Below, piece after piece: positions 6,990 to 40,746 of a stretch of 64,000 nucleotides of DNA. The position numbers were made by a program, and so were the translations under genes. A model generated the notes under the pieces. The model was given only the letters and a program-made list of their open reading frames with translations, ran no database searches and had not been told where the DNA came from. Origin of the DNA: Acorus gramineus (Eukaryota > Streptophyta > Magnoliopsida > Acorales > Acoraceae). The DNA is taken from contig JAUJYN010000034.1 in the NCBI GenBank assembly GCA_030737835.1, positions 1,240,001 through 1,304,000 on the forward strand. Reading direction: 5' to 3'. Every line of letters starts with the position of its first letter. The stretch's first letter is position 1.

Positions 6990-8233
6990 TGTCACGCCCT
7001 AGGGCGGCCGTCCCCGATACGTGGCAAATATATATAATATCAGCAGTCCATACAGGAGATCAATAAAAGACTCTAAACAACCTCGAAGATAATAACACAA
7101 TTAACAATGTAGCTGACATAATATATATACATATAGCGGAAGCTTAAACGACTGAGTCTGTAATTCAAAGACATATTACAGACCAGAATACATAATCAAC
7201 TGTCTTGTGAGAGCCAATATAAACAAAGACATCCATATACAAGTATTGTGCCCAAGCACGAATAACAATACATACTAGCAAAAGAAGGGGATGCTGATGG
7301 CCTCTCACTCGCAGAACCCAAAACGCGAACGCTGCTCCGCTACTGATGTGATGCCTCGGGGAGCTCCTCCTTCAGATCTGACTCAGTAACAACTGGAGGA
7401 AAAGATATGAGAGGGGTGAGCCACACGCTCAGTGAATGGCACAATCTATGCAACACAACTCATATTAACCTTAAAATAATTAAAGTCCCAAAATGGGAGT
7501 AACTGCACAAATTGGTGGGTCGTAGCGTCGCCGACCCACCCCACCCTCACCCTCACCCTTTAGAGGTGATATAGGACTTTTGGGACAGATTAGACTGCTC
7601 CACACCCTTGGTCCACCGGTAGCCCTTTCCCCGGGTAGCCTCTACCTGGTATATTCCCATGGTCAGTACATTCCCGAATGCATCGGTAGTACCTACCAAT
7701 GGGAGCCCTCTGTCAGGATAGCTTTTCCCAACCCGGTTAGTTCCTACTCGGATCCAACGAAGGGGAGAAAACAACCTACTCTCACGGATACGATCCTCTT
7801 GGATCCGTCGACAACGATTACTAACACTACTAAGAAAATGAATTCTCAAGAATTCATCCGGGACGCATAACTAAGATGCGGGGAAAAACATATATTATAA
7901 TAACAAGCTTATAATATTTTCTAAGGCATGCTTATACTAACATATTCTCATTTTGATTTAATTAAATTAAACTAAATGGGAAACATGCATAGATCAAGGC
8001 TTTTCAAGCATGGGACATGGTGTCTAGGCATGTATGGGCCTCTATACATGATACATGGATGTATATCCCTAGCATACAATGTCTAACATGGTATGGTTAC
8101 ATCATAGCAAAACATGCATTAACATAAGTTTTCATTCACAAAAGTTAATTTGTAGTTATGGTGCCCCAGGGGAGGTGATTGCACGCCTACGTGCATCGAA
8201 CGCCTCCCTACTGGGTTGGATTGACCCACTCAC

Positions 8234-14545: not shown

Positions 14546-15913
14546 TGTCACGCCCCAGGGCGGCCGTCCCCGATACGTGGCAAATATATATAATATCAGC
14601 AGTCCATACAGGAGATCAATAAAAGACTCTAAACAACATCGAAGATAATAACACAATTAACAATGTAGCTGACATAATATATATACATATAGCGGAAGCT
14701 TAAACGACTGAGTCTGTAATTCAAAGACATATTACAGACCAGAATACATAATCAACTGTCCTGTGAGAGCCAATATAAACAAAGACATCCATATACAAGT
14801 ATTGTGACCAAGCACGAATAACAATACATAGCAAAAAGAAGGGGATGCTGATGGCCTCTCACTCGCAGAACCCAAAACGCGAACGCTGCTCTGCTACTGA
14901 TGTGATGCCTCGGGGAGCTCCTCCTTCAGATCCGACTCAGTAACAACTGGAGGAAAAGATATGAGAGGGGTGAGCCACACGCTCAGTGAATGGCACAATC
15001 TATGCAACACAACTCATATTAACCTTAAAATAATAAAAGTCCCAAAATGGGAGTAACTGCACAATTTGGTGGGTCGTAGCGTCGCCGACCCACCCCACCC
15101 TCACCCTCACCCTTTAGAGGTGACATAGGACTTTTGGGACAGATTAGACTGCTCCACACCCTTGGTCCACCGGTAGCCCTTTCCCCGGGTAGCCTCTACC
15201 TGGTATACTCCCATGGTCAGTACATTCCCGAATGCATCGGTAGTACCTACCGATGGGAGCCCTCTGTCAGGACAGCTTTTCCCAACCCGGTTAGTTCCTA
15301 CTCGGATCCAACGAAGGGGAGAAAACAACCTACTCTCACGGATACGATCCTCTTGGATCCGTCGACAACGATTACTAACACTACTAAGGTAATGAATTCT
15401 CAAGAATTCCTCCGAGCGCATAACTAAGATGCGGGAAAAACATACATTATAATAACAAGGTTATAATATTCTCTAAGGCATGCTTATACTAACATATTCT
15501 CATTTTGATTTAATTAAATTAAACTAAATGGGAAACATGCATAGATCAAGGCTTTTCAAGCATGGGACATGGTGTCTAGGCATGTATGGGCCTCTTATAC
15601 ATGATACATGGATGTATATCCCTAGCATACAATGTCTAACATGGCATGGTTACATCATAGCAAAGCATGCAACATAGTTTTCATTCACACAAGTTAATAT
15701 GTAGTTATGGTGCCCCAGGGGAGGGCAATGCACGCCTACGTGCATCGAACGCCTCCCTACTGGGTTGGATTGACCCACTCACCGCAACCCGGGTCGTTGC
15801 GTGACCGTTCGCCAAGATCTGCAAGACAAGGGCATTCAATATGGTGAGTATAACTACACAAATATACATGGAATTTACTAGAAATGCCAGAAACTCAGAC
15901 AAGCATGCATAGG
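14546..15913 (-). repeat. 5' LTR of Chr-A, first part
   Basis: Matches 6990-8367 nearly base for base. It includes one tile copy and the 36-nt splice-like module at 15783-15818. It is interrupted at 15914 by another LTR start. The rest of this LTR is found at 25853-26582 and 29121-29367. Confidence 0.88.
15783..15818 (-). other. candidate micro-exon in the Chr-A 5' LTR
   Basis: 36 nt, minus strand, between CTTGCAG and GTGAGTGGG. It differs at a few bases from the partner at 8234-8269 but both flanks are kept. Confidence 0.45.
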
Positions 15914-16546
15914 TGTCACGCCCCAGGGCGTCCGACCTCGATACATGGCAAATATATATAATATCAGCAGTCCATACAAGAGATCAATAAACAACTCTAA
16001 ACAACATCGAAAATGACAACACAATAAATAATGTAGCTGACATAATATATATACATATAGCGAAAGCTTAAACGACTGAGTCTGTAATTCAAAGACATAT
16101 TACAGACCAGAATACATAATCAACTGTCCTGTGAGAGCCAATATAAACAAAGACATCCAAATACAAGTGTTGTGCCCAAGCACGGATAACAATACATACA
16201 AGCAAAGAAGGGGATACTGATGGCCTCTCACTCGCAGAACCCAAAACGTGAACGCTGCTCCGCTACTGATGTGATGCCTCGGGGAGCTCCTCCTTCAGAT
16301 CCGACTCAGTAACAACTGGAGGAAAACAATATGCGAGGGGTGACCCACACGCTCAGTGAATGGCACAATCTATGCAACACAACTCATATTAACCTTAAAA
16401 TAATTAAAGTCCCTAAACGGGAGTAACTGTACAAGCTAGTGGGTCGTAACATCGCCGACCCACCCCACCCTCACCCTCACCCTTTAGGGGTGACATGGGC
16501 CTTTTGGGACAGACTAGACTGCTCTCCACCCTTGGTCCACCGGTAG
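15914..16546 (-). mobile_element. LTR fragment nested in the Chr-A 5' LTR
   Basis: Begins TGTCACGCCCCAGGGCGTCC inside the Chr-A LTR and follows the Chr-A LTR sequence to CCACCGGTAG, where the Ath-1 LTR begins. It represents the first 630 bp or so of a closely related LTR. The rest of it is not seen, so it was truncated when, or after, Ath-1 arrived. Confidence 0.8.
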
Positions 16547-17986
16547 TGATTGATTATTAAAGTTGTTATTAATTACCGCAAGTGCACGGATCATTACAGA
16601 AGTATAGATCTAGCAAATACGGGTCGATCCCACAGAGAATTGTTCAAATTAAATTATTAATTGATTTACCTAATCGAATTAGACAGGAAGATTGATGAAG
16701 GTTTATTTTTTTATTTTATTTTTTAAAAAAATGAATATTAATATAAAAAGATAACTAGGGTTTTAGAATCCACCATGCAATACCAATTTAGGGGTTATAT
16801 TCAAATGTGAAACTCCACCATATAACTCAATCAATATTGACGTTAGTCAAATACCAATCGGAAATTAAATATTTAAAATCACATTAATTATTTCATAAAA
16901 TGATCTATCTCCTTCCCTTTATAAAATCTACCAACTCAATATTCAACTTGTTAAGAAGAGCATAAAATATCAGAGAACCTAATCAAAGCATATTTTATCA
17001 AATCAAATACAAGAGATTTTTGAAGAAGGTAATAAGAAATTCACATGAAAGGTTTCAAAAGAGAATTGAAGGAGAGATTGATATTCAATAAAGCAAACAA
17101 TATGGAGAATTCAGATCTAAATATAAAATCCTAAACTAGCATTGCATGGTTTCATCTTCAACCCTAGTTGAAGATTTAGCTACTAGAAAACATGATCAAA
17201 CTAAATAAAAAATCAAAGACATCATATTATTGAAAAATTCTTGAAAATAAAAATACTAAAGTAATATTAAAATTCAGATCTAAATATATACAAACATCCA
17301 AAGATATGAGATGAAAAGAAAAACAAAAACAAAGCAAAACTCTTGAATCTTTCTTCTCCTTCGGTTGTCCCTTTGCCTCCTTCTTTGATTCTTTTCTTGG
17401 CTTCATATGTGTTCCTTTTATAGCCTCCAGCCTTGAATCTTGACCATTGATTTGCAATGAATTGGATGGTTAAGATTGGCCATCAACCTTCCTCATATGA
17501 ATATTTGACAATTTTAGCAGGTAAAATCTTTCATTCCCGTCATTAATTTTCTGCAGAATCTTCGGATGAATTTTTGACCCCTAATAAGGTGGAATTGCAA
17601 AATATTCATGAAACATTGATTTGTAGATCTTGAAAATATCTTTTCAACGCCATATTTTGGGCCAAAATACGATATTTGAGGCAAAAGTTATGGTCAAAAT
17701 AGTGGGACGGTTTTAACATTGATTTGAAGAATATTTGATTGGATTTTGATTTTTGATTCTCTCTTCACCAAATCTTTATCTAGCATAATTTTGGATCTTC
17801 AAGAATCCTCTTGATTCTCCTTCATATCTTTAAATGCTTTATAGAATATTTTGCATTGATAATCATCATTTATCTCAATTACCTGCAATAACAAATAAAT
17901 TCTGAATATTAGTCATTATTACACATAAAATTAGGAAATAGAAAACTAAATTAAGGGGATTAAATGTGCAAATAATACGCTTATCA
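16547..17986 (-). repeat. 3' LTR of Ath-1
   Basis: 1440 bp, plus-strand ends TGATTGATTATT and CGCTTATCA. Next to it (17987-18001) the minus strand reads GGTTTGGGGGTATT, a polypurine tract. AT-rich throughout. Matches 22880-24329 with few differences. Confidence 0.9.
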
Positions 17987-19358
17987 AATACCCCCAAACC
18001 TAGATTTTGCTAGTCCTCTAGCAACTAAAGTGATTAAAAACAAGGATAAGGCCACTTTCGCAGGCTCTCACGGTTGCATTTAGCGTATGCAACAAGCCCT
18101 TAAACCCCTAGGTCACCCCTAGTGGACGAGTTTGACTCGTGAGGGTTTGCAGCGAATCTACCCACAAAATTCTTTTTTTTTTTTTTCTGCCATAATCCCA
18201 TGATAGTATCAAAGAGCTCAAGATATTAAATTCTTTTCAGAAAAGTACTTAATGTAATGACATGGTGTGCTCGTGAAAATCTGGACAACACTCAAGAGAT
18301 TCAGACTCCTAAGTAGGAATTTTCCTTCTAATTGCTGTCGAACGGTTGGTTCTCCCTTAGACACTGAGTCAAAACCAGAATAGTCTACTAAGCCAGTAAG
18401 AGATTTGGATGTTCACTTTATTACCTCATGGGCTTTATATGTGATATTCCAGCTTACTTACTATCTTTTACAGGGAGGCTTTCACTCTATCACTGTCGAA
18501 TCGGTCTTTAAACTTCAACATAATGATTGCTAATCTCTTTGTTCAAAGCACCTTAGATATTATCTCATTGAATTTTTTTTTTCTTCTTCTTCTTCTTCTT
18601 TTTTTTTTTTTTTTCTTTTGAAAAAGTACTCTATCAATTTTTTTTTTTTTTAAGACCTAATGATAAGTAGCCCTTTTCCACTGTACTTGTGATTCAATGG
18701 TTGCTTTTCAATTGATGTAAACCCTAACTCCTTATCAAGCAAACCAATGAACTAGACTTTTAGGTTCAACAGGTTTTAGAAAGTTCTTAACATTCTAGGC
18801 AATTATTAAGTCGACTCCACAAATTCATCTTAACTCAAAAATGCATCCAGATGTGTAGTGACTTTTCCAATATCAAGCACTTAAGACCTACTAAAATAGA
18901 AATTAACATAAGAGTTCATGCTACCATCATAGGGATATAGGCATTTTTTTTTTTTTTTTGAATACTCTATCGTAACTGAGAATAATGAATCACATGATAA
19001 ATTCAAAATGTCAAAAACCCCCCAAACCTAATCCACACATTGTCCTCAATGTTCATATATTTGGACACGTGAAATATTAGAGAATAAAAAAGGAAGAATT
19101 TTACCATATCAAGTGATCACCATTGAACTGCTGCTATACGATGGCATCAAAACAATTTCATTAGTTCAACATACTTCAAAATAAAGACTACATCCAATGA
19201 CTCGATGATAGTGGATGCAAACAAACATAAAATCTAGACTAAAAATGGAAAATTACCCTAACGCCCCCAAACCTAGTTTACAGCATGAACAAGGAAATGA
19301 TGATTCGGGAGGAAAGGCAACCCAGAAAAATATGGTACAAAACAATTATCAAGAGAGC
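17987..19358 (-). other. 3' non-coding region of Ath-1
   Basis: No open frame of note. It contains poly-T and CTT runs (about 18178-18188, 18569-18613, 18946-18958) and a second GGTTTGGGGGG-like tract (minus strand, about 19019-19028). It lies where pol and 3' non-coding sequence would be in a full Athila/Tat element. A near-identical copy is at 24330-25716. Confidence 0.8.
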
Positions 19359-22010
19359 TTAATCTTGATAGATGGAATCATGGAGGTGAATGACCTCCAT
19401 TTTCTCCAGCGGTAACTCCAAAAATGGTTTAAGTTCTAGCTTGGGAGGCTCATCAATGGAAGGAAGGGGTGGTGACAGAGGAGGGGGCTCAGACTTTGGT
19501 TGCCACTTATTAAATGGGATGGTTGTTTCTGAATCTAGGAGAGCATTTACTTCCATGATCGATTTTTCCATATCAAAATTTTCTCCAAAGTGGGCAAGAC
19601 AAAACTCCAAAGGATCTTTCGTGCTCATAGAATGATGTTTCAAATCTTCAATTATTTCCTCAATAGAATTCACATCCTCTAATTCATCATTATAATCTCC
19701 TGGTTGTGTTCCAATGTGGAAGATATTTAGGTCAACTGTCATATTTCCAAAAGATAATTTCATCAATCCATTTCGACAGTTAATCAAAGCATTAGATGTA
19801 GCCAGAAATGGTCTGCCTAAAATTACAGGAATTTGCCCTTTCGGGTTCAGAACAGGTTGGGTTTCTAAAACTATAAAGTCAACAGGAAAGATGAAATCCC
19901 CAACCTTAATCAGGACATCCTCAATGACACCTTTAGGAATTTTCACAGATCGATCTGCTAATTGTAAGGTCACTGGGGTAGGCCTCAATTCTCCTATGCC
20001 TAACTGTTTGTACACTGAATAGGGCAGTAGATTTACACTCGCACCTAAGTCTAGCAAAGCTCGATCAATATTGGTGTCTCCAATCACACATGAAATGGTG
20101 GGACAACCTGGGTCCTTATACTTGATTGGAGTTTCACATGAAAGAATGGAGCTTACATGGGATGCTAGGAAAGCTTTCTTGGGTACATTGTTGGTCCTCT
20201 TTTGGGTGCATAAGTCCTTCAAAAATTTAGCATACGCTGGTACTTGTTGGATAGCATCTAGGAGCGGAATGTTCACGCGAACTTGCTTAAACACTTCTAA
20301 AATTTTATCTAGCTGGGTAGATTTCTTAGTTGAACCTAATCGCTGAGGATATGGGGCCTTGGGAACATAAATTCTCCCAGGAGAATCATTGGGCTTTGCT
20401 TTCTCTGGGATGGATGGGCTAGGAGGGATGGGTTCAGAACCTGGGTCCTCATGAATAAATTTGGGCTTGTCCTTATCATCTTCAACATCATTATTAGGCA
20501 TAATAACCTTGTTGTCCACTTGTCTACCAGACCTAAGAGTAGTGATTGCATTAACCTGGTTGGACTGGTTACTAGAAGAATCTTGGATTTGTCCTTGAAG
20601 AATGGGTCCTCTAGGGTTAGGCTCAGGTTGACTAGGAAATTTTCCTTTCTCTCTCTCATTTATGGTGGTGGCCAATTGACCAACTTGAATCTCGAGACGG
20701 GAGATTGCCTGTGTGGTGGATTGAAGGATTTGCCCTGTAGATTGCATAAATTGATTCAAAGTGGCAGACATCTGGGAGGATGATTGAGTTAGATTTTGAG
20801 TGGACTTCATAAGAACATCTAATCCTTTCTCAAAGGAAGAGAACTTCTTCTCATTTTCTATTTGAAACCCAGGCGGAGGAAATGGAGTAGGAATGGGTCC
20901 TGTGTTTGGTCTAGGATACATGGGAGCTTGAGGAGGTCCCTGTGGGCCTCCCTGGTGTGGGCCTTGAGTCCACGACAGATTTGGATGATTCCTCCATCCA
21001 GGATTATAAGTTTGAGCATATGGGTCATTTTTCCTCCACTGTAAGCTATTGGCATGTTCGGCCCAACTTTCCTTGTGGGATGACAGGGAAGGACAGTCTT
21101 CCGCTAGGTGATTTGAAGATTTACATAAAATGCAGAGAATAGTAGAGTTGGAGGTGGAGACTTGATTAACAGAATCATGATTTGGTTTCATCTCTAGGGC
21201 CTCCACTCTACGAATGAGAGATGCAAACTTGGCTTCAGACTCAAAGCTACTATCAATGGAATGAATACCTCCCTTAGAAGGCATGGGTTTCTCAGGCTCT
21301 CTAATTGTCTCCCATTGCATGGATTTTTCAGCTACTTCTTCCAAAAATGCCCATGCTTCAGTTTCATTTTTATTGGTAAATTCACCACTACACATTGATT
21401 CAACCATAGTCCTTGTGGTGTAATTCAAACCTTCATATAAAATTTGCACTAATCTCCAAACCTCAAATCCATGATGAGGACATTGCAACAACAAGTCCTT
21501 GAATCTCTCTAAATATCTCCATAAAGATTCTCCCTCCTTTTGAATGAATTGATTTATATTCATGCGAATCTTAGCAGTTTTATGATTAGGAAAGAACTTC
21601 TTCAAAAATATCATAACTAATTGATCCCAAGTGGTGATAGATTTTGCGGGTAGAGCATACAACCACTTTTTAGCATTATCTTTGAGGGAGAAGTTGATTA
21701 ACCTCAACCGGATTGAATCATCAGTTAGCTGTTGAAGTTTTAGAGTGGAACAAACTTCCTCAAATTCCCTAATGAAAAGATATGGATCCTCAGATCCATC
21801 AAATTTTGGGAGCATATTAATCATCCCAGGCTTGATCTCAAAGTTGTTAGCATTGGTTGTTGGTAACACAATGCATGAGGGTTGCGTAGTTCTAGATGGA
21901 TACATGTAATCCTTCAAGGTCTTTGGAATGACATCTACTGTGTTATCCATGGTGATGGTTGAATCGGTACGAATCAATCGGTTTTTAGAATCCCTAGACC
22001 AAATGCTCAT
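19359..22010 (-). CDS. gag: Ath-1 gag-protease polyprotein, 883 aa
   Basis: One open frame. Residues of about 60-240 form a retrotransposon gag domain (MLPKFDGSEDPYLFIREF, KWLYALPAKSITTWDQL, FKDLLLQCPHHGFEVWRLVQ). A CCHC knuckle CILCKSSNHLAEDC sits near residue 292 (21093-21134). A Pro/Gln-rich linker follows, then QVGQLATTINEREKGKFPSQ. The aspartic protease motif LLDLGASVNLLP lies near residue 654 (20043-20051 for DLG) with VILGRPFLATSNALI downstream. The end (PPKLELKPFLELPLEK) resembles the gag-protease/RT linker of Athila/Tat elements, but no RT follows. The protein would assemble particles and cleave itself. A second in-frame Met at residue 21 could be the real start. It lies on the minus strand between the primer-site leader and the 3' non-coding part. 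Confidence 0.88.
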   Translation of the reverse strand: MSIWSRDSKNRLIRTDSTITMDNTVDVIPKTLKDYMYPSRTTQPSCIVLPTTNANNFEIKPGMINMLPKFDGSEDPYLFIREFEEVCSTLKLQQLTDDSIRLRLINFSLKDNAKKWLYALPAKSITTWDQLVMIFLKKFFPNHKTAKIRMNINQFIQKEGESLWRYLERFKDLLLQCPHHGFEVWRLVQILYEGLNYTTRTMVESMCSGEFTNKNETEAWAFLEEVAEKSMQWETIREPEKPMPSKGGIHSIDSSFESEAKFASLIRRVEALEMKPNHDSVNQVSTSNSTILCILCKSSNHLAEDCPSLSSHKESWAEHANSLQWRKNDPYAQTYNPGWRNHPNLSWTQGPHQGGPQGPPQAPMYPRPNTGPIPTPFPPPGFQIENEKKFSSFEKGLDVLMKSTQNLTQSSSQMSATLNQFMQSTGQILQSTTQAISRLEIQVGQLATTINEREKGKFPSQPEPNPRGPILQGQIQDSSSNQSNQVNAITTLRSGRQVDNKVIMPNNDVEDDKDKPKFIHEDPGSEPIPPSPSIPEKAKPNDSPGRIYVPKAPYPQRLGSTKKSTQLDKILEVFKQVRVNIPLLDAIQQVPAYAKFLKDLCTQKRTNNVPKKAFLASHVSSILSCETPIKYKDPGCPTISCVIGDTNIDRALLDLGASVNLLPYSVYKQLGIGELRPTPVTLQLADRSVKIPKGVIEDVLIKVGDFIFPVDFIVLETQPVLNPKGQIPVILGRPFLATSNALINCRNGLMKLSFGNMTVDLNIFHIGTQPGDYNDELEDVNSIEEIIEDLKHHSMSTKDPLEFCLAHFGENFDMEKSIMEVNALLDSETTIPFNKWQPKSEPPPLSPPLPSIDEPPKLELKPFLELPLEKMEVIHLHDSIYQD

Positions 22011-22855
22011 AAATCAAAATATCTCAAATCAAGAATATACTTTCACAACCAACATATTAAGATTTATCTTGTTAAGTGAGGGATGATGATTTTTAAAAGA
22101 TCTAGTTGTTGAGGATCTTCCTCCTTAAAGGACAGCTCCTAACTGTTCCAAGATATGCCTTAAGCTTGCCAGTTAACGATCAACCACTCAACAACCAGGA
22201 AAGTGTAAAGGATTAGTGGGGGGTCTTCCACGCTTTCGCGTGTTCCTCAATTAAGTAACCACGTCCTTTAAGGTAGAAACCTTATGAAACCACTTTCCTA
22301 GACATCATTAAACGGTTAATGGCTCACTGAAGTATCCTTGGCGTCTCTTGTCCTATTGAGCTCGAAAACCTAGGGCCAAGTCTACTTCATCTTATTTTAA
22401 TTAGGCTCATGGGTTTGACAAATGCTCAAGATGATGATTTGTGGGCCAAGGAAGGGCGATGAAATCCCCACCTTATGTTATGTGGGACAACCCTTAGATG
22501 GATTAATTAATGTATGCTAATTGAAAAATGCACACACCGAAAATCCCAATCAACCCCAAAAGTAACCCACTTGCAGAAGATTCGTGGGTGAATGAAATAC
22601 TCACAACTCACACACAGTGAGGGAAGAATTAAATCCACCTTTTTGCCGTGATGAAATGGTTCACCTTAGGGTCGCCTTCGAACACTTTTGGATACTCGTT
22701 TAGAGAAAGAATGGTCTAAGCCTTACACCATTCTTTGTTGTGTTCTTGTAGGTTCTTGATATCCTGCAAAATATGAAGAGAAAAAATCAGCAAAAGTAAA
22801 GAAAAAAAAAACTAATCCGAAAGATAAATCAACATCAAATATAATATGAAACAAT
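22011..22855 (-). other. leader of Ath-1
   Basis: About 845 bp between the primer site and gag with no convincing frame. Long untranslated leaders are usual in Athila/Tat elements. Confidence 0.7.
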
Positions 22856-22873
22856 TCCCCGGCAACGGCGCCA
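22856..22873 (-). other. primer binding site of Ath-1 (tRNA-Asp)
   Basis: Minus strand TGGCGCCGTTGCCGGGGA, complementary to the 3' end of plant tRNA-Asp. It lies six bases from the LTR end at 22880. This primer is the common one for Athila/Tat elements and differs from the tRNA-iMet primer of the chromoviruses here. Confidence 0.9.
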
Positions 22874-22879
22874 AAAACT

Positions 22880-24329
22880 TGATTGATTATTAAAGTTGTT
22901 ATTAATTACCGCAAGTGCACGGATCATTACAGAAGTATAGATCTAGCAAATACGGGTCGATCCCACAGAGAATTGTTCAAATTAAATTATTAATTGATTT
23001 ACCTAATCGAATTAGACAGGAAGATTGATGAAGGTTTATTTTTTTATTTTTATTTTTTTAAAAAAATGGATATTAATATAAAAAGATAACTAGGGTTTTA
23101 GAATCCACCATGCAATACCAATTTAGGGGTTATATTCAAATGTGAAACTCCACCATATAACTCAATCAATATTGACGTTAGTCAAATACCAATCGGAAAT
23201 TAAATATTTAAAATCATATTAATTATTTCATAAAATGATCTATCTCCCTTCCCTTTATAAAATCTACCAACTCAATATTCAACTTGTTAAGAAGAGCATA
23301 AAATATCAGAGAACCTAATCAAAGCATATTTTATCAAATCAAATACAAGAGATTTTTGAAGAAGGTAATAAGAAATTCACATGAAAGGTTTCAAAAGAGA
23401 ATTGAAGGAGAGATTGATATTCAATAAAGCAAACAATATGGAGAATTCAGATCTAAATATAAAATCCTAAACTAGCATTGCATGGTTTCATCTTCAACCC
23501 TAGTTGAAGATTTAGCTACTAGAAAACATGATCAAACTAAATAAAAAATAAAAATAAAAGACATCATATTATTGAAAAATTCTTGAAAATAAAAATACTA
23601 AAGTAATATTAAAATTCAGATCTAAATATATACAAACATCCAAAGATATGAGATGAAAAGAAAAACAAAAACAAAGCAAAACTCTTGAATCTTTCTTCTC
23701 CTTCGGTTGTCCCTTTGCCTCCTTCCTTGATTCCTTTTCTTGGCTTCATATGTGTTCCTTTTATAGCCTCCAGCCTTGAATCTTGACCATTGATTTGCAA
23801 TGAATTGGATGGTTAAGATTGACCATCAACCTTCCTCATATGAATATTTGACAATTTTAGCAGGTAAAATTTTTCATTCCTGTCATTAATTTTCTGCAGA
23901 ATCTTCGGATGAATTTTTGACCCCTAATAAGGTGGAATTGCAAAATATTCATGAAACATTGATTTGTAGATCTTGAAAATATATTTTCAACGCCATATTT
24001 TGGGCCAAAATACGATATTTGAGGCAAAAGTTATGGTCAAAATAGTGGGACGGTTTTAACATTGATTTGAAGAATATTTGATTGGATTTTGATTTTTGAT
24101 TCTCTCTTCACCAAATCTTTATCTAGCATAATTTTGGATCTTCAAGAATCCTCTTGATTCTCCTTCATATCTTTAAATGCTTTATAGAATATTTTGCATT
24201 GATAATCATCATTTATCTCAATTACCTGCAATAACAAATAAATTCTGAATATTAGTCATTATTACACATAAAATTAGGAAATAGAAAACTAAATTAAGGG
24301 GATTAAATGTGCAAATAATACGCTTATCA
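22880..24329 (-). repeat. 5' LTR of Ath-1 (shared central LTR of the tandem)
   Basis: 1450 bp, ends TGATTGATTATT and CGCTTATCA. It serves the gag-bearing unit on its left as 5' LTR and the truncated unit on its right as 3' LTR. Confidence 0.9.
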
Positions 24330-25852
24330 AATACCCCCAAACCTAGATTTTGCTAGTCCTCTAGCAACTAAAGTGATTAAAAACAAGGATAAGGCCACTT
24401 TCGCAGGCTCTCACGGTTGCATTTAGCGTATGCAACAAGCCCTTAAACCCCTAGGTCACCCCTAGTGGACGAGTTTGACTCGTGAGGGTTTGCAGCGAAT
24501 CTACCCACAAAATTTTTTTTTTTTTTTTTCTGCCATAATCCCATGATAGTATCAAAGAGCTCAAGATATTAAATTCTTTTCAGAAAAGTACTTAATGTAA
24601 TGACATGGTGTGCTCGTGAAAATCTGGACAACACTCAAGAGATTCAGACTCCTAAGTAGGAATTTTCCTTCTAATTGCTGTCGAATGGTTGGTTCTCCCT
24701 TAGACACTGAGTCAAAACCAGAATAGTCTACTAAGCCAGTAAGAGATTTGGATGTTCACTTTATTACCTCATGGGCTTTATATGTGATATTCCAACTTAC
24801 TTACTATCTTTTACAGGGAGGCTTTCACTCTATCACTGTCGAATCGGTCTTTAAACTTCAACATAATGATTGCTAATCTCTTTGTTCAAAGCACCTTAGA
24901 TATTATCTCATTGAATTTTTTTTTTCTTCTTCTTCTTCTTCTTCTTTTTTCTTTTTTTTTTTTTTGAAAAAGTATTCAATCAATTTTTATTTATTTTTTT
25001 TAAGACCTAATGATAAGTAGCCCTTTTCCACTGTACTTGTGATTCAATGGTTGCTTTTCAATTGATGTAAACCCTAACTCCTTATCAAGCAAACCAATGA
25101 ACTAGACTTTTAGGTTCAACAGGTTTTAGAAAGTTCTTAACATTCTAGGCAATTATTAAGTCGACTCCACAAATTCATCTTAACTCAAAAATGCATCCAG
25201 ATGTGTAGTGACTTTTCCAATATCAAGCACTTAAGACCTACTAAAATAGAAATTAACATAAGAGTTCATGCTACCATCATAGGGATATAGGCATTTTTTT
25301 TTTTTTTTTTGAATACTCTATCATAACTGAGAATGATGAATCACATGATAAATTCAAAATGTTAAAAACCCCCCCAAACCTAATCCACACATTCTCCTCA
25401 ATGTTCATATGTTTGGACACGTGAAATATCAAGAAAGGAGAATAAAAAAGGAAGAATTTTACCATATCAAGTGATCACCATTGAACTGCTGCTATACGAT
25501 GGCATCAAAACAATTTTGTTAGTTCAACATACTTCAAAATAAAGACTACATCCAATGACTCGATGATAGTGGATGCAAACAAACATAAAATCTAGACTAA
25601 AAATGAAAAATTACCCTAACACTCCAAAACCTAGTTTACAGCATGAACAAGGAAATGATGATTCGGGAGGAAAGGCAATACAGAAAAATATAGTACAAAA
25701 CAATTATCAAGAGAGCTTAATTTTGATAGATGGAATCATGGAGGTGAATGACCTCTATTTTCCCCAGCGGTAACTCCAAAAATGGTTTAAGTTCTAGCTT
25801 GGGAGGCTCATCAATGGAAGGAAGGGGTGGAGACAGAAGGAAGGGGTGGTTT
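24330..25852 (-). mobile_element. truncated second unit of the Ath-1 tandem
   Basis: Repeats the 3' non-coding region and the last 130 or so bases of the gag frame (25717-25845) of the first unit. It stops near 25852, where Chr-A LTR sequence (AAGTCCGAGTG) resumes. A second polypurine-like tract follows the LTR at 24330, as in the first unit. Confidence 0.82.
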
Positions 25853-26582: not shown

Positions 26583-27170
26583 TGTTATATATGTGTCACT
26601 TTTAGCCTTCTGGTCACCTTTGGAACATTCTGGCAGTTTTTCAACTTTTTTCTTTTTTCGATCGGAACCGCTAAAATTTTAGACTTTTAGCTATCATCAT
26701 AAGCTTGAGAACTCCGATTGAAAATCTAACTGCACATTATGTGTCCTGGTGCCATTTCAAACCACTCACAAAAATTTCATCGAATTCCGGTAACGTTCAG
26801 AATTTGGCAGTTCTGAATCGTATCCAGGTTTTGACCAAGTGGGAATGTCAAGGGGGGGACTTGACCAAGTCAAAGATGACTTTGACCATGTCAAGTTTTA
26901 CCATTGACTTGGTCAAATGGTTTTGTTTGTTTGTGTGGTTGGGTTGACTCAAAGTCAAACACCAAAAGTGCCTTAAGTCTGTGTGTGTGTGTGAGTGTGT
27001 GTGTGTAAGTGTGTGTGTGCCCTAAAGTGGGCGTCCCCCTTCTTCTTTCCTCTTCTCTTCTTCTCTCACACACACAAAATAAAAAAATCCATCTCTCCTT
27101 TCCCTTTATTTGCTCCATTAGAGGTAGGAGGAGGAGATGAAATAGAAGGCCATTAAAGGGAAAAAGAAAG

Positions 27171-27263
27171 GTAGGGTTTGGATCTACATCTCCATGGTTT
27201 TTGTTTTGCTTTCACCTTTGTTTACCTCCCTCTCATGGCTTCCCTTTTCCCCCTTGTTTTCAG
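27171..27263 (+). other. candidate intron 1 of S1
   Basis: AAAG before GTAGGG, and CTTGTTTTCAG at the end, 93 nt. The matching segments are 8990-9086 in Chr-A (97 nt, minus) and 44156-44233 in LTR R (78 nt). This is the usual size of a short plant intron. Confidence 0.4.
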
Positions 27264-27351
27264 CTATTTTAGGGCTGAGAGTGGTCTTGGTGGTGGTGAT
27301 TTGGTGCGCAAAGGGCACCCGAGTTCCTCCCTTTGCTCTTCCTCTCTTTGG

Positions 27352-27867
27352 GTAGGTCCTTCTCCTCCCTATGCTTGTTTAGATGTTTGATTAGGGTATA
27401 TAAATGGTTATGCATGCTATGCATGGGTGTTAGGGGGTGTGGGAGGGCTGAGGAGGGGGTGGAAGGGGCTCGGGCGCGCGTGCGGAGTCATCCGCGGGCG
27501 TGCGCGCGCAGGCAGGCGCTGGCGCGCGCAGACGGGTGCGCTGGCGGGCGCGCAGTGCGCGCGGGTACGCGCTGGTTGGGCGCGCGCGCGGCAGCGCGTC
27601 TGGGCGCGCAGGCAAAGGCGCGGCAGTGCGCCAGGGGCGCAGGGGTGTGTGCGGGCGTGCGCTTTCGTGCGCGCGCGCGTGGGGGACCATGCATATGGCT
27701 GCCCGAGGGTTCGGGAGGGTGTCGGGGCACTCGGACTCGCGTGCGTATGCGCGTGCTCGCGTGCGTGCGGGCCCGTATGCATGCTTGTCCGAGTGTTGGG
27801 TATTTCTAGTAAATTTTCTTATGTAATTGTTTAGTTTACTCACCGTATTGAATGCCCTGTCTTGCAG
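27352..27867 (+). other. candidate intron 2 of S1, containing the GC-rich block
   Basis: Donor GTAGGT after CTTTGG, acceptor CTTGCAG at 27867, 516 nt. A possible branch site TACTCAC lies about 25 nt before the acceptor. The GC-rich block (27468-27790) is wholly inside. Confidence 0.4.
27468..27790 (+). repeat. GC-rich alternating block of S1
   Basis: GCGCGCGT and GTGCGGGC runs ending in GCATGCTTGTCCGAGT. Overlapping frames of up to 185 codons on both strands carry no domain. Confidence 0.8.
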
Positions 27868-27903
27868 ATCTTGACGGACGGTCACGCGACAACCCGGGTT
27901 TTG
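27868..27903 (+). other. candidate micro-exon in S1
   Basis: 36 nt between CTTGCAG and GTGAGTGGG. This is the clearest copy of the module. The next acceptor-like site, TTTTTCTCCAG, ends at 28730. Confidence 0.5.
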
Positions 27904-29120
27904 GTGAGTGGGACAATCCAACTCAGTAGGGAGACGTTCGATGCACGTAGGCATGCATTGCTCTCCCCTGGGGCACCATAATAGCATATTAACTAGTAAT
28001 CAAATGTAAAACTATGCATGCATGATTAATATGATGTATCCATGCCACCTTAGACTTTGTATGCTAGGGATATGCACCCCTTATATCATGTATAGAGGCC
28101 TATGCATGCCTAGACACCATGCCCCGAACTATGTATGTTTCCCATCTAGTTTAATCTAATTAAATAAAAATGAGAGCATACAGTTACAAGCATGCCTTAG
28201 AGAATGTTATAACCTTGTTGTTATAATATATGTTTGCCCGCATCTTAGTTATGCGCCATGGAGAAATTCTTGGGAATTCATGACATTATTAGCATTACAA
28301 ATCGGTGTTGACGGATCCAAGAGGATCGTATCCGTGTGAGTAAGTTGTCTTCTCCTTTTGGTTGGATCCGATGTAGGGACTCCCCGGCGTTGGCTGGCCT
28401 GACAGAGGGCTCCCGTCCGTAGGTACCTCCGATGCGTCGGACTGTACTGATAGTGGGAGTATACCAGGTGGAGGCTACGAGGGTGGGAGAGGCTACCAGG
28501 TGGACCAGGGGTGGAGAGCGGTCTAGTATGCCCCAAGAGGCCCATGTCACCCCCCGGAAAGGGTGAGGGTGAGGGGGGGGGGGTGGGTTGGCGATGAAAT
28601 GACCCACTAGAATGTGTAGTTGCTCCCGTGTTAGGGGCTATAAATTATATAAGGTTAATATGAATTGTGATGCATGGGTTGTGCTATTCACTGAGCGTGT
28701 GGCTCACCCCTCGCATATATTTTTCTCCAGTTATATCTGAGTCGGATCTGAAGGAGGAGCTCCCCGAGGCACATCAGTAGTAGCGGAGCAGCGTCACGTT
28801 CTGCGAGTGAGAGGCCATCAGCATCCCCTTCTTGATTGTATGTATTGTATTCCGTGCTTGGGCACATACTTGTATTTGGATGTCATTGTGTATATTGGCT
28901 CTCACAGGACAGTTGATTATGTATCGGGTCTGTAATATGTCTTTGAATTACAGACTCAGTCGTTTAAGCTTCCGCTATTTGTATATATTATGTCAGCTAC
29001 CTTATTGTCTGTGTTGTCATTTCGATGTTGTTTAGAGTATTTTATTGATCTCCTGTATAGACTACTGATATTATATATATATTTGCCACGTATCGGGGAC
29101 GGCCGCCCTGGGGCGTGACA

Positions 29121-37195: not shown

Positions 37196-37505
37196 ATTAT
37201 TCCCTAAGGCATGCAATAACATTACAAGTTGCATTTAATTTAACAAATTAAACTAATAGGAGCATACAAAGGCCGAGGCTTTCATAGCATGATAACAAGG
37301 TGACAAGGTGCATGGCTCTTACACAACCTAAGGGTGCAAGTCCCTAACATATTCAGTCTAGGGTAGCATGCATACTACATATCAATCATGCTTGCATGGA
37401 TTACATATTAAACATGTTAATATTAATCTATGGTGCCCCAGGGGAGGACGGTATACGCCCAAGTGCATATAGCGCCTCCCAACTGGGTTGGATTGTCCCA
37501 CTCAC

Positions 37506-37541
37506 CGGAAGTCGGGTCGTCGCGCGACCGTCCGTCAAGAT
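37506..37541 (-). other. candidate micro-exon in the Chr-B 5' LTR
   Basis: 36 nt, minus strand, CTTGCAG before and GTGAGTGGG after. The upstream candidate exon is 38420-38522, giving a predicted intron of 878 nt that holds the GC-rich block. Confidence 0.45.
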
Positions 37542-37619
37542 CTGCAAGACAGGGTATCAACTTGCTAAGTAAAATCCACAAGTATACCAAAAATACTCTA
37601 AAAATACACATCCCTCGGC

Positions 37620-38260
37620 AAACGTGCATACGGCCCGTACGCACGCGAGCCCGAGCACCCCGACTCACTCCCGCACCCCTGGGCAGCCGTTCGCACGGCC
37701 ACCCGCCCTGGGCGCACAGCCGAGCCCCAGCCCGCGCGCACCCAGGCGCACTGCCGAGCCCAGCCTGCACGCCCGGACTCCCTGCCGGATCACCCCGGGT
37801 GCATCGCGCGCTCGCTGCGCCCCAGCGCAGCAACCCGCGCGCACACCCGCACGGCCCGCGCCCCGCGCCTCGCCCCGCGCGCACTCCGCACGCACCACCG
37901 CTCGCCTCGCCGCGCGCGCACACCCCGCGCGCACCACTGCTCACCTCGCCGCGCACCCCGCGCACACCACCGCTCGCCTCGCCTCACCGCGCGCACACCC
38001 CGCGCCTGAGCCTCTGCCCAGCGCTCCGCGCGCACGCTCCCGCACGGTGCCCAGCGCCCAGCGCCCAGCACCCTCGCCCAGTACACCCAGCGCCCAACAC
38101 AGCCAGCACGCCCAGCGCCCAGCACGCCCAACACACCCGCGCCTGCGCCACCCGAGCGCACGCCCGCCCGCACGTCCGCGAGCACGCGCGAGCGCGCTTT
38201 GCCACTGCACGCCTGCTGCGCCTGCCTGCTGCGCTGCCTGTGCTGCCTGCTGCCCGAGAC
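37620..38260 (-). repeat. GC-rich block of the Chr-B 5' LTR
   Basis: The longest GC-rich block in the window. Besides GCGCGC runs it has an internal repeat of about 40-50 bp (CACCGCTCGCCTCGCCGCGC type, about 37890-38000) and many GCCCAGC repeats. Frames of up to 370 codons overlap it and have no domain. Confidence 0.8.
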
Positions 38261-40746
38261 TGCCAACCTCCCTGCCCGAGCTCCTCTACCACCAACCACC
38301 GGCCACCAATGGCCTCCGACCGCCCCCAACCACCACCGACAGCCACCAGCCGCCCTCCACACTCAACCCCACCCTCCTACCATGCATCTAAACATGAAAA
38401 AGAGGGAAAGAACCCTTACCCAAGGAACGGAGAGGAAAGGAAGGGAACCGGAGGATCTTCGTGCACCGAAACACCTCCCAACGGATCTCCACCACCAAGA
38501 CCTCCTCCTACCTCAAATGGGGCTGAAAACAGGGGAGAATAGAGGGGGTTAGAGGGGGCCAAACTTGTCGGAACTCGAATCCGAGAACACCGGGGGATAG
38601 ATCGGGACCGGATCTAACCTTTCTATGTTTTGGGTTTTAAGCTTCAAGCACCCTAGGTGGCTAAAAGCAAGAAAAGGAGAGAGGGGGAGAGAGAAAATGT
38701 GTTGGAGAAGATGATGAATAGTGGTGGGCAACCTTTTTAGATTCACTTAAATAGTCAAACCAACTTTAATTAGGGTTAACCTAGGTTTAAGTGAGGATTA
38801 AAGGCTTTAAGTGGGTTTTGACTTGGGTCAACCCAACCACACAAAAAAACAAAAAGGGTTGACCAAGTCATGGGCCCACTTTGACCGAGTCAACTCTCCC
38901 AATGACTTCTCGCTCGATCAAATCCCGGATACACCCCGGAACTGCGAAATTTCAGAAACATTATCGGAATTCGATGAAAATTTCATGAGTGGCTTAAAAT
39001 GGCACCAGGACACATAATATGCAGTTAGATTTTCAATCGGAGTCCTCTAGCTCAGGACGATAGCTAACAGTCCAAAATTTTAGCGTTTCCGATCGAAAAA
39101 CGAAAAAACTCAAAAACTGTTAGAATGCTCCAATGGTTACCAGCAGGCTAAAAAGTGACACATATATAATAGAAGAGACCTGGATTTACTGGTCTAGAGA
39201 CCATGCCGTCGGTCGAAGAGACCCGGATTTACTGGTCTACTCAACACTACTGGATCATTTACATCTAGATAATCGCCCAACGATGTCCTTCAGCATCGAT
39301 CACGAGACCGGACCCAACAACTATGGGAACGGTCGAACAACAAATGGGTCACGAGGCGACGCGTCTTCGCCTCATCCACACCCTCACTCCTGGAAGGAGA
39401 CATCTTGGGACTTTGGGAGAGACTTAGACTGCTCTACACCCCTGGTCCACCGGTAGCCTCTCCCCGCTCCGTAGCTTACCTGGTATACTCCCACGATTTA
39501 GCACAGTCCGAAACACGTCAAGAGGTACCTATTGATGGGAGTCCTCTGTCAGGACAGCCTGTCTAACGCCAGGGATGTCATTACTTGGATCCAACGAAGG
39601 GGAGAACGATTCCACGCTCGCGACATCATTCAATAACCCTCTCCCGGGTAGTATCTACAACCCGATCTCCTCAACTCACTGCTCTCCACCCCTGATCCAC
39701 CCGGTAGCCTCTCCCACCCTCGTGGCCTCCGCCTAGTCCTCTGACAGGTATAGTTAACGCCGGGGAGTTCCTACATTGGATCCAACGAAGGGGAGAACGA
39801 TCCCATGTTCGCAAAGCGAAACCCAATGGAAAACAACCACTCTCGATACTCGCTCATCGAGATATCACACACATGCATAACAACAACCAACACACTCATA
39901 TTAACCTCAAAGTAGTCATAGTCCCTAAACGGGGGTAACTACACAATCCAGCGGGTCGTTACATCGCCGACCCACCCCACCCTCACCCTCACCCTCGAAG
40001 GGGTGACATGGGCCTTTTGGGACTGACTAGACTGCTATTCACCCTTGGTCCACCGGTAGCCTCTCCCCGCTCCGTAGCTTACCTGGTATACTCCCACGAT
40101 TCAGAATAGTCCGAAACACATCAGGAGGTGCCTACTGATGGGAGCCCTTTGTCAGGATAGCCTGTCTAACGCCGGGGATGTACTACACGGATCCAACGAA
40201 GGGAAGGGAACAGCCTACCCACACGCATGCGATCCTCTTGGATCCGTCGACAACGCTTCCAAACATTTCTAATGACATGAATTCTCAAGAATTCCACCAG
40301 GGCGCATAACCAAGATGCGGGGAGACATATATTATAACAACAAGGTTATAATATTCTCTAAGGCATGCTTACAACCAGATACTCACATTTGATTTAAATA
40401 AATTAAACTAAATGGGAACATGCATAGGTCGGGGCTTTCAAATCAATGGACAAGGTGCCTAAACATGCATAGTCCGCTATACATGATATAAGGGTGCATA
40501 TCCCTAGCATACAAAGTCTAAGGTGGCATGGATACATCATATTGATCATGCATAGATCAAGGCTTTTAAGTACAGGACATGGTGTCCAAGCATGTACAGG
40601 CCTCTATACACGATACATGGATGTATATCCCTAGCATGCAAAATATCTACATATTAGTTAGGGGGGGGGCATCGATGCGCGACACGCGTCTACGCGGGTC
40701 GAGCGCATCCCTAGAGAGGGGAGGGGATTGGAATCAAACCACTCAC

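Follow-up and report, generated by a model that had tools for sequence, protein, structure and literature searches.

Intron-like leaders within the long terminal repeats of a chromovirus family in Acorus gramineus, with copies that exactly lack two of the introns

The window examined here is a 64,000-nucleotide stretch of the Acorus gramineus genome (C72:1240001-1304000), and the genome searched with sequences from it amounts to 398.6 Mb. Nested Ty3/gypsy elements fill the window, with matches to Gag, aspartic protease, reverse transcriptase, RNase H, integrase, and SH3 domains and a weak match to a chromodomain. The host of the structures described below is a Ty3/gypsy chromovirus family. The frames of element B follow the chromovirus domain order (Gag, protease, reverse transcriptase, RNase H, integrase, chromodomain); a primer-binding site (PBS) of the tRNA-iMet type stands just 3' of the long terminal repeat (LTR) at four sites in the window; and 5-bp target duplications (GTAGG, GGTTT, TGGAG, and GTATA) were found in genome copies outside it. 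The chromodomain match was below threshold (21 bits; Pfam cut-off, 25.1 bits), as was the integrase core match, which occurred in element A only (24.5; cut-off, 32.6).

An earlier note on this DNA had proposed that these LTRs are multi-exon leaders with real introns, marked in the solo LTR S1 by six splice-like signals and by counterparts in elements A and B and in the LTRs R and S2. All six signals lie at the bases given for them, and the counterpart coordinates agree after shifts of 1 to 5 nt, made by eye, at some sites (Table 1). For introns 1 and 2 the proposal is borne out by copies from which they are exactly absent. For intron 3 it is backed by conserved sites and by the pattern of ATG trinucleotides, and no copy without this intron was found at the tolerance searched. 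We add to the proposal a putative fourth intron that would span the PBS.

Copies that lack introns 1 and 2

If a spliced leader RNA is reverse transcribed, some integrated LTRs should lack introns exactly. The genome was searched with a BLAST-type probe made of S1 exons 2, 3, and 4 joined together, in which an exact join was not required (best 40 of 3546 candidates scored; 41 rows). Five of the 41 rows listed span exons 2 and 3, and all five are joined at the predicted bases. A probe of exons 1 and 2 gave three spanning matches among 45 rows, at loci L055, L056, and L058, again joined exactly. A pattern for the join of exons 2 and 3, allowing at most one mismatch, was found at no fewer than 14 places in the genome (reversed control, 0), and the pattern for the intact acceptor at no fewer than 3905. 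Both counts are lower bounds because both patterns start with C, and many copies have T there, which spends the one mismatch.

We examined 20 LTR sequences without intron 2 (16 loci and, in addition, L080, L083, L084, and L085). They represent about 17 insertions, since L055 and L056, which have common flanks, are one duplicated insertion, and L059/L083 and L072/L078 are LTR pairs; some of these insertions may come from a parent that was itself intron-less. Of the 16 loci, 10 also lack intron 1 exactly, 5 retain it, and 1 has an inexact deletion in it. The last of these, L071 (C8:17536900-17537900), lacks intron 2 exactly and retains GTAAG and ATTTCAG from intron 1. In L070 and L077, which keep intron 1, donor 1 reads GATAGA and its GT is gone. 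Of these two introns, L079 retains intron 2 alone and L080 neither; the two have been lost both singly and together. In two elements, both LTRs are without introns 1 and 2: one on C82 (L059/L083), with a PBS and an LTR pair that is 95% identical across 1035 compared positions, and one on C58 (L072/L078), with a PBS and a GTATA target duplication. Target duplications were also seen at L055 (GTAGG), L057 (GGTTT), and L058 (TGGAG).

A tree of 47 copies (31 intron-bearing and 16 without intron 2; L079, L080, and L083 to L085 left out) was built with introns 1 and 2 excluded. On this unrooted tree, the state of intron 2 changes at least seven times, and both states occur within the S1-like and the B/C-like branches. 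Seven is a lower bound because the tree under-samples intron-bearing relatives of several intron-less loci. L073 and A3 sit on long branches.

Exact loss of intron 2 extends to a divergent family of R type (L084 and L085). A join pattern for this family, allowing two mismatches, matched 245 places. The first 100 were listed, L084 and L085 were examined, and the search gives no total for the family; among the 100 are many acceptors, intact or mutated, with endings such as GCAG or GTAG.

On these grounds, the splicing of introns 1 and 2 from element RNA is near certain, and reverse transcription of spliced RNA would be by far the simplest cause of their exact absence at GT and AG.

Two side observations concern the R/S2-type family. 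The join of CTCTTTTG to ATCTCGTCGGATGGG occurs exactly at least 12 times among the first 100 of the 245 places, and L085 (C1:21027255-21027365) is one case of exact intron 2 loss. An intron-2-less lineage of this type may have multiplied on its own.

Splice sites, ATG content, and a putative fourth intron

Forty further LTR loci were fetched from the genome, of which 27 were complete and 13 were not; together with 4 LTRs of the window, these made up 31 aligned copies. In strict alignment columns, GT or AG was present in 29 (donor 1), 29 (acceptor 1), 29 (donor 2), 31 (acceptor 2), 31 (donor 3), and 31 (acceptor 3) copies. With a slack of 4 nt, the counts rose to 31 at every site except donor 1 (29), where the misses, B5 and C5, each have a GT 5 nt upstream. 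Variants of the donors are mostly compatible with splicing (GTAGGG, GTAAGG, or GTGAGG at donor 1; GTAAGT, GTAAGC, or GTGAGT at donor 2). Scored with a plant splice-site matrix, the three donors come 1st, 3rd, and 5th among the 202 of S1, and the three acceptors 3rd, 7th, and 12th among 139, a ranking that favours the donors more than the acceptors.

The density of ATG was 1.2 per kb in the presumed exons versus 27 per kb. Across the 31 copies, exons 1 to 4 contained 1.7, 0.6, 3.6, and 0.3 ATG per kb, introns 1 to 3 contained 19.8, 20.3, and 34.4, and the remainder of the LTR from 28838 onward contained 23.5. ATG is the most depleted of the 64 trinucleotides in the exons (13 observed, 107 expected), and its exon-to-intron density ratio (0.046) is the lowest of all trinucleotides. 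When the exon mask was rotated within single copies, the signal was clear for S1 (18 of 2068 rotations as low) and A3 (19 of 2197).

The depletion stops at a GTATGT (position 28838 in S1) that is present in all 31 aligned copies. At the other side of the PBS, each of 11 distinct PBS leaders has a TAG acceptor (for instance, TTTTCTTAG) about 10 nt before the start of gag; in the L032 leader, the gag ATG itself is changed. Most of the 11 leaders also have CTGAT, a branch-like site, upstream of this acceptor. Because the ATG-poor exon ends at GTATGT and an acceptor precedes the gag ATG, we infer a fourth intron between the two, whose removal would take the PBS out of the RNA. S1 lacks the acceptor of this intron because it is a solo LTR. 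Splicing of introns 3 and 4 is suggested by the sites together with the ATG pattern.

Several results weigh against the splicing interpretation, in whole or in part. In the slack control, every one of the 31 copies had a GT within 4 nt at 105 of the 600 random positions drawn (41 of 600 for CAG, TAG, or AAG). The core of every splice site is more conserved than the mean of its neighbours, yet 7 to 16 of 30 neighbouring positions do as well or better, so that the comparison proposed in the earlier note supports it weakly. Moreover, 31 of the 202 GTs of S1, including donor 3, are invariant across the 30 other copies. Since so many neighbours are equally conserved, site conservation cannot settle the matter by itself; it appears modestly above chance and is suggestive, and we dropped it as the main proof. 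The pattern for the join of exons 1 and 2 is less clean than that for exons 2 and 3 (13 places; reversed control, 2); of the 13, 7 are loci already examined, 2 are new (L079 and L080), and 4 were not examined. Rotation of the exon mask gave weak results for B5 (200 of 2732) and C5 (412 of 2674). In the 5' LTR of element A, the 420 nt that lead up to the PBS contain no GTATGT. S2 has lost the GT of donor 3 (ATGAGT) and has none at the aligned donor 4 (TTATGT), and its acceptor 3 is unclear.

Conservation of the exons is also uneven. Deep identity was 0.81 and 0.80 for exons 3 and 4, 0.76 for intron 3, and 0.50 and 0.62 for exons 1 and 2. The earlier note's contrast of kept exons with variable spacers thus holds for exons 3 and 4 and for the length of intron 2 (445 to 877 nt). 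It fails for exons 1 and 2, for which we rejected a simple excess of exon over intron conservation; what these two exons keep is their length and their lack of ATG. The greater conservation of intron 3 fits a function in genomic RNA without proving it. The T fraction was 0.42, 0.22, and 0.28 in introns 1 to 3 and 0.29, 0.32, 0.21, and 0.23 in exons 1 to 4; intron 2, unlike typical plant introns, is therefore not U-rich.

A further point against the interpretation is that no loss of intron 3 or 4 came to light. A genome search for the join of exons 3 and 4 gave one match at three mismatches, itself an intact acceptor, which amounts to 0 joins against 3146 intact acceptors, and a probe of the same two exons gave no join among the best 40 of 507 candidates scored. 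The join of exon 4 to gag had two matches at two mismatches, neither of them join-like by their letters (context not examined). At the rate seen for intron 2, about 11 losses of intron 3 would be expected, and the Poisson probability of finding none is about 1e-5, a rough figure because the copies are not independent and the pattern tolerances differ. Such an absence would be expected if RNAs lacking introns 3 and 4 cannot be copied. Either packaging or copying fails for RNA without intron 3, or this intron is removed only jointly with the PBS intron.

It was also observed that the core of intron 2 in S1 (27440-27790) is extremely rich in GC and CpG, with GCGCGC tracts. Such a composition is unusual for plant introns, but other copies lack this one exactly.

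A leader that may separate messenger from genome

We consider it probable (about 80%), on the strength of the sequence comparisons above, that the LTRs carry spliceosomal introns and that fully spliced RNA serves as gag messenger, with RNA that keeps intron 3 and the PBS serving as genome. Transcription would start upstream of exon 1 in the 5' LTR and yield a leader with four introns. Three of these would lie wholly within the LTR; the fourth would begin at GTATGT, pass the LTR end and the PBS, and finish at an acceptor some 10 nt short of the gag ATG. Complete splicing would join the short, ATG-poor exons to gag and give a translated mRNA without a PBS; unspliced or partly spliced RNA that retains intron 3 and the PBS would be the genome. 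Introns 1 and 2 would be optional, and when they are removed from genomic RNA, the next integrated copy would be born without them. The scarcity of such copies (14 joins against 3905 intact sites) would mean that genomic RNA mostly keeps introns 1 and 2, or that copies without them multiply poorly.

Three other accounts of the intron-less LTRs or of the splice-like sites were weighed. Ordinary DNA deletions do happen in these LTRs, as the inexact one in intron 1 of L071 illustrates, and could in principle have made the intron-less copies. All five spanning probe rows, however, fall at the exact splice join (no dedicated search for near misses was made), the identical join recurs in distinct subfamilies, L084 included, and introns 1 and 2 were lost singly as well as together, with two elements lacking them in both LTRs. 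It is not credible that deletion repeatedly produced exactly these ends, all of which reverse transcription of spliced RNA would predict, and a deletion origin is highly improbable. That the motifs reflect chance or composition in an unspliced LTR draws on the other strong GT and AG sites that the LTR holds, many of them invariant; the exact losses of introns and the paucity of ATG in the exons leave this account with almost no likelihood. The reverse history, in which intron-less LTRs are ancestral and the introns were inserted later, is compatible with a change count on an unrooted tree, which cannot separate gain from loss. Yet the sites of introns 1 and 2 occupy the same positions in S1-, A-, B-, C-, R-, and S2-type LTRs, intron-less copies adjoin close intron-bearing relatives on the tree (L057 and L058 next to L017; L055 and L056 next to L023), and intact intron 2 acceptors outnumber joins 3905 to 14, so we give intron gain next to no weight.

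A different account accepts splicing and assigns the introns a role in expression (in transcription, in export, or in restraint of poly(A) use in the 5' LTR, the last as with the splice donor of foamy viruses) rather than in separating mRNA from genome. Foamy viruses use U1 at an LTR splice donor upstream of the poly(A) signal, according to the passages on them in PMC3694450, and introns 1 and 2 are evidently not needed for the genome role since integrated copies can lack them. An expression role leaves unexplained why exon 4 is nearly free of ATG exactly up to GTATGT, why an acceptor precedes gag, and why intron 3 was never found lost. As a replacement for the division between mRNA and genome we find it unlikely, and as a role alongside that division it may well be true.

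A more specific form of the separation model is put forward tentatively, at somewhat less than even odds. Intron 3 and the PBS intron would together act as a label that separates genome from messenger, loss of introns 1 and 2 being tolerated for packaging and copying and loss of intron 3 not. Intron 3 may carry a packaging or dimer signal, or it may be removed only together with the PBS. If so, the LTR would be a complete four-exon untranslated leader gene that each element carries twice, once at either end, and the genome would constitute a natural retrotransposition assay with thousands of trials.

Related arrangements are known. In barley, passages on the Ty1/copia element BARE1 describe a spliced RNA for Gag and another RNA for replication, with a facultative intron of 104 nt in the internal region, close to where gag ends (PMC3735527). 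The likeness lies in separate RNA pools, which are proposed here; the difference is that three introns lie in the LTR, with the putative fourth across the PBS. Ogre, a Ty3/gypsy element of the Tat group in pea and Medicago, has an intron described as experimentally known (passages in PMC6317226 and PMC12786077). It resembles the present family as a plant Ty3/gypsy element with an intron and differs from it in that the introns here are untranslated and lie in both LTRs. For EVADE (EVD), a Ty1/copia element of Arabidopsis, splicing is described as yielding a Gag mRNA, shGAG, in addition to full-length RNA (passages in PMC12786077 and PMC7730604), and its intron, in contrast to those here, removes the protease region (PMC12786077). 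As the passages present them, the introns of Ogre and EVADE are internal, whereas those described here are in the LTR.

In foamy viruses, the major splice donor, which the passages in PMC3694450 locate in the LTR and upstream of the poly(A) signal, is described there as required for gag expression. The LTR there contributes a donor, as far as those passages go; here it would hold the donors and acceptors of three introns. Human T-cell leukemia virus type 1 (HTLV-1) also has a splice donor in R. The use of intron loss to reveal passage through spliced RNA goes back to the 1985 assay with an intron-marked Ty, as outlined in a passage of PMC12786077. There the experimenters supplied the intron, whereas the introns described here occur in the element naturally.

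A 2025 review describes, in its passage on the subject, plant LTR retrotransposons as generally intron-free, with Ogre and EVADE as notable exceptions (PMC12786077). Judged by titles and the openings of abstracts, no report of whole introns inside plant LTRs was found among the open-access papers listed, and none inside an LTR is described in the passages on BARE1, Ogre, EVADE, and foamy viruses. If the model is correct, a very numerous chromovirus family (at least 3905 intact intron 2 acceptors) splices its leader to resolve the competing demands of translation and copying on its RNA. Intron-less copies would then allow the return of spliced RNA to the genome to be counted from genome sequence alone, and annotators should expect spliced transcripts from solo LTRs as well. 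In sunflower, the set of expressed elements included no Tekay member (PMC7730604); for the family described here, which the earlier note called Tekay-type, expression may need an activating condition.

Feature coordinates and other observations in the window

Table 1. Positions of leader segments and coding frames in the window
Feature	Start	End	Strand	Remarks
S1 solo LTR	26583	29120	+	TG...CA
S1 exon 1	27053	27170	+	5' end estimated from a pyrimidine-rich, start-site-like tract; 3' end, splice donor
S1 intron 1	27171	27263	+	GTAGGG...TTTTCAG, 93 nt; last base of acceptor CTTGTTTTCAG at 27263; exactly absent in other copies
S1 exon 2	27264	27351	+	88 nt, 0 ATG
S1 intron 2	27352	27867	+	GTAGGT...CTTGCAG, 516 nt; exactly absent in other copies
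S1 exon 3	27868	27903	+	36 nt, 0 ATG
S1 intron 3	27904	28730	+	GTGAGT...TTTTTCTCCAG, 827 nt, 34 ATGs; loss found in no copy
S1 exon 4	28731	28837	+	107 nt, 0 ATG
S1 putative intron 4, 5' part	28838	29120	+	donor GTATGT at 28838; donor in 31/31 aligned copies
Element A 3' LTR intron 1	8990	9086	-	
Element A 3' LTR exon 2	8877	8989	-	
Element A 3' LTR intron 2	8270	8876	-	
Element A 3' LTR exon 3	8234	8269	-	
Element A 3' LTR intron 3	7393	8233	-	
Element A 3' LTR exon 4	7276	7392	-	followed by GTATGT
Element B 5' LTR intron 1	38523	38618	-	donor GTTAGA, 5 nt upstream of aligned column
Element B 5' LTR exon 2	38420	38522	-	
Element B 5' LTR intron 2	37542	38419	-	
Element B 5' LTR exon 3	37506	37541	-	
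Element B 5' LTR intron 3	36394	37505	-	
Element B 5' LTR exon 4	36284	36393	-	
Element B putative intron 4	35882	36283	-	LTR GTATGT to CCTAG just before gag ATG; PBS inside
Element C 5' LTR exon 3	52796	52831	-	
Element C 5' LTR exon 4	51585	51691	-	
Element C putative intron 4	51187	51584	-	PBS inside
LTR R intron 1	44156	44233	+	
LTR R exon 2	44234	44345	+	
LTR R intron 2	44346	44918	+	exactly absent in relatives L084 and L085
S2 exon 2	60062	60165	+	
S2 intron 2	60166	60641	+	
S2-type acceptor	63319	63328	+	CGCTTTATAG, just before gag ATG
Element B gag and RVP_2 frame	33747	35897		Pfam domains
Element B reverse transcriptase, RNase H, and integrase zinc domain frame	32450	33874		Pfam domains
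Element B Tf2-1 SH3 and chromodomain frame	31318	32043		Pfam domains

Three further observations concern other parts of the window. A nested element at 16547-25846 has an LTR pair that is 98% identical (16547-19487 and 22880-25846) and an 884-amino-acid open reading frame (19359-22013, minus strand) whose Pfam matches are gag and aspartic protease only; this suggests a gag-pro element that has no reverse transcriptase. Antisense to the LTR of element B, a stop-to-stop frame of 371 amino acids (37427-38542) has no Pfam match and is perhaps a by-product of LTR composition. Element A has three similar LTR-end segments (6990-7622, 14546-15911, and 15913-16546; 93 to 97%), which suggests a partial duplication or a nested solo LTR beside its 5' LTR.

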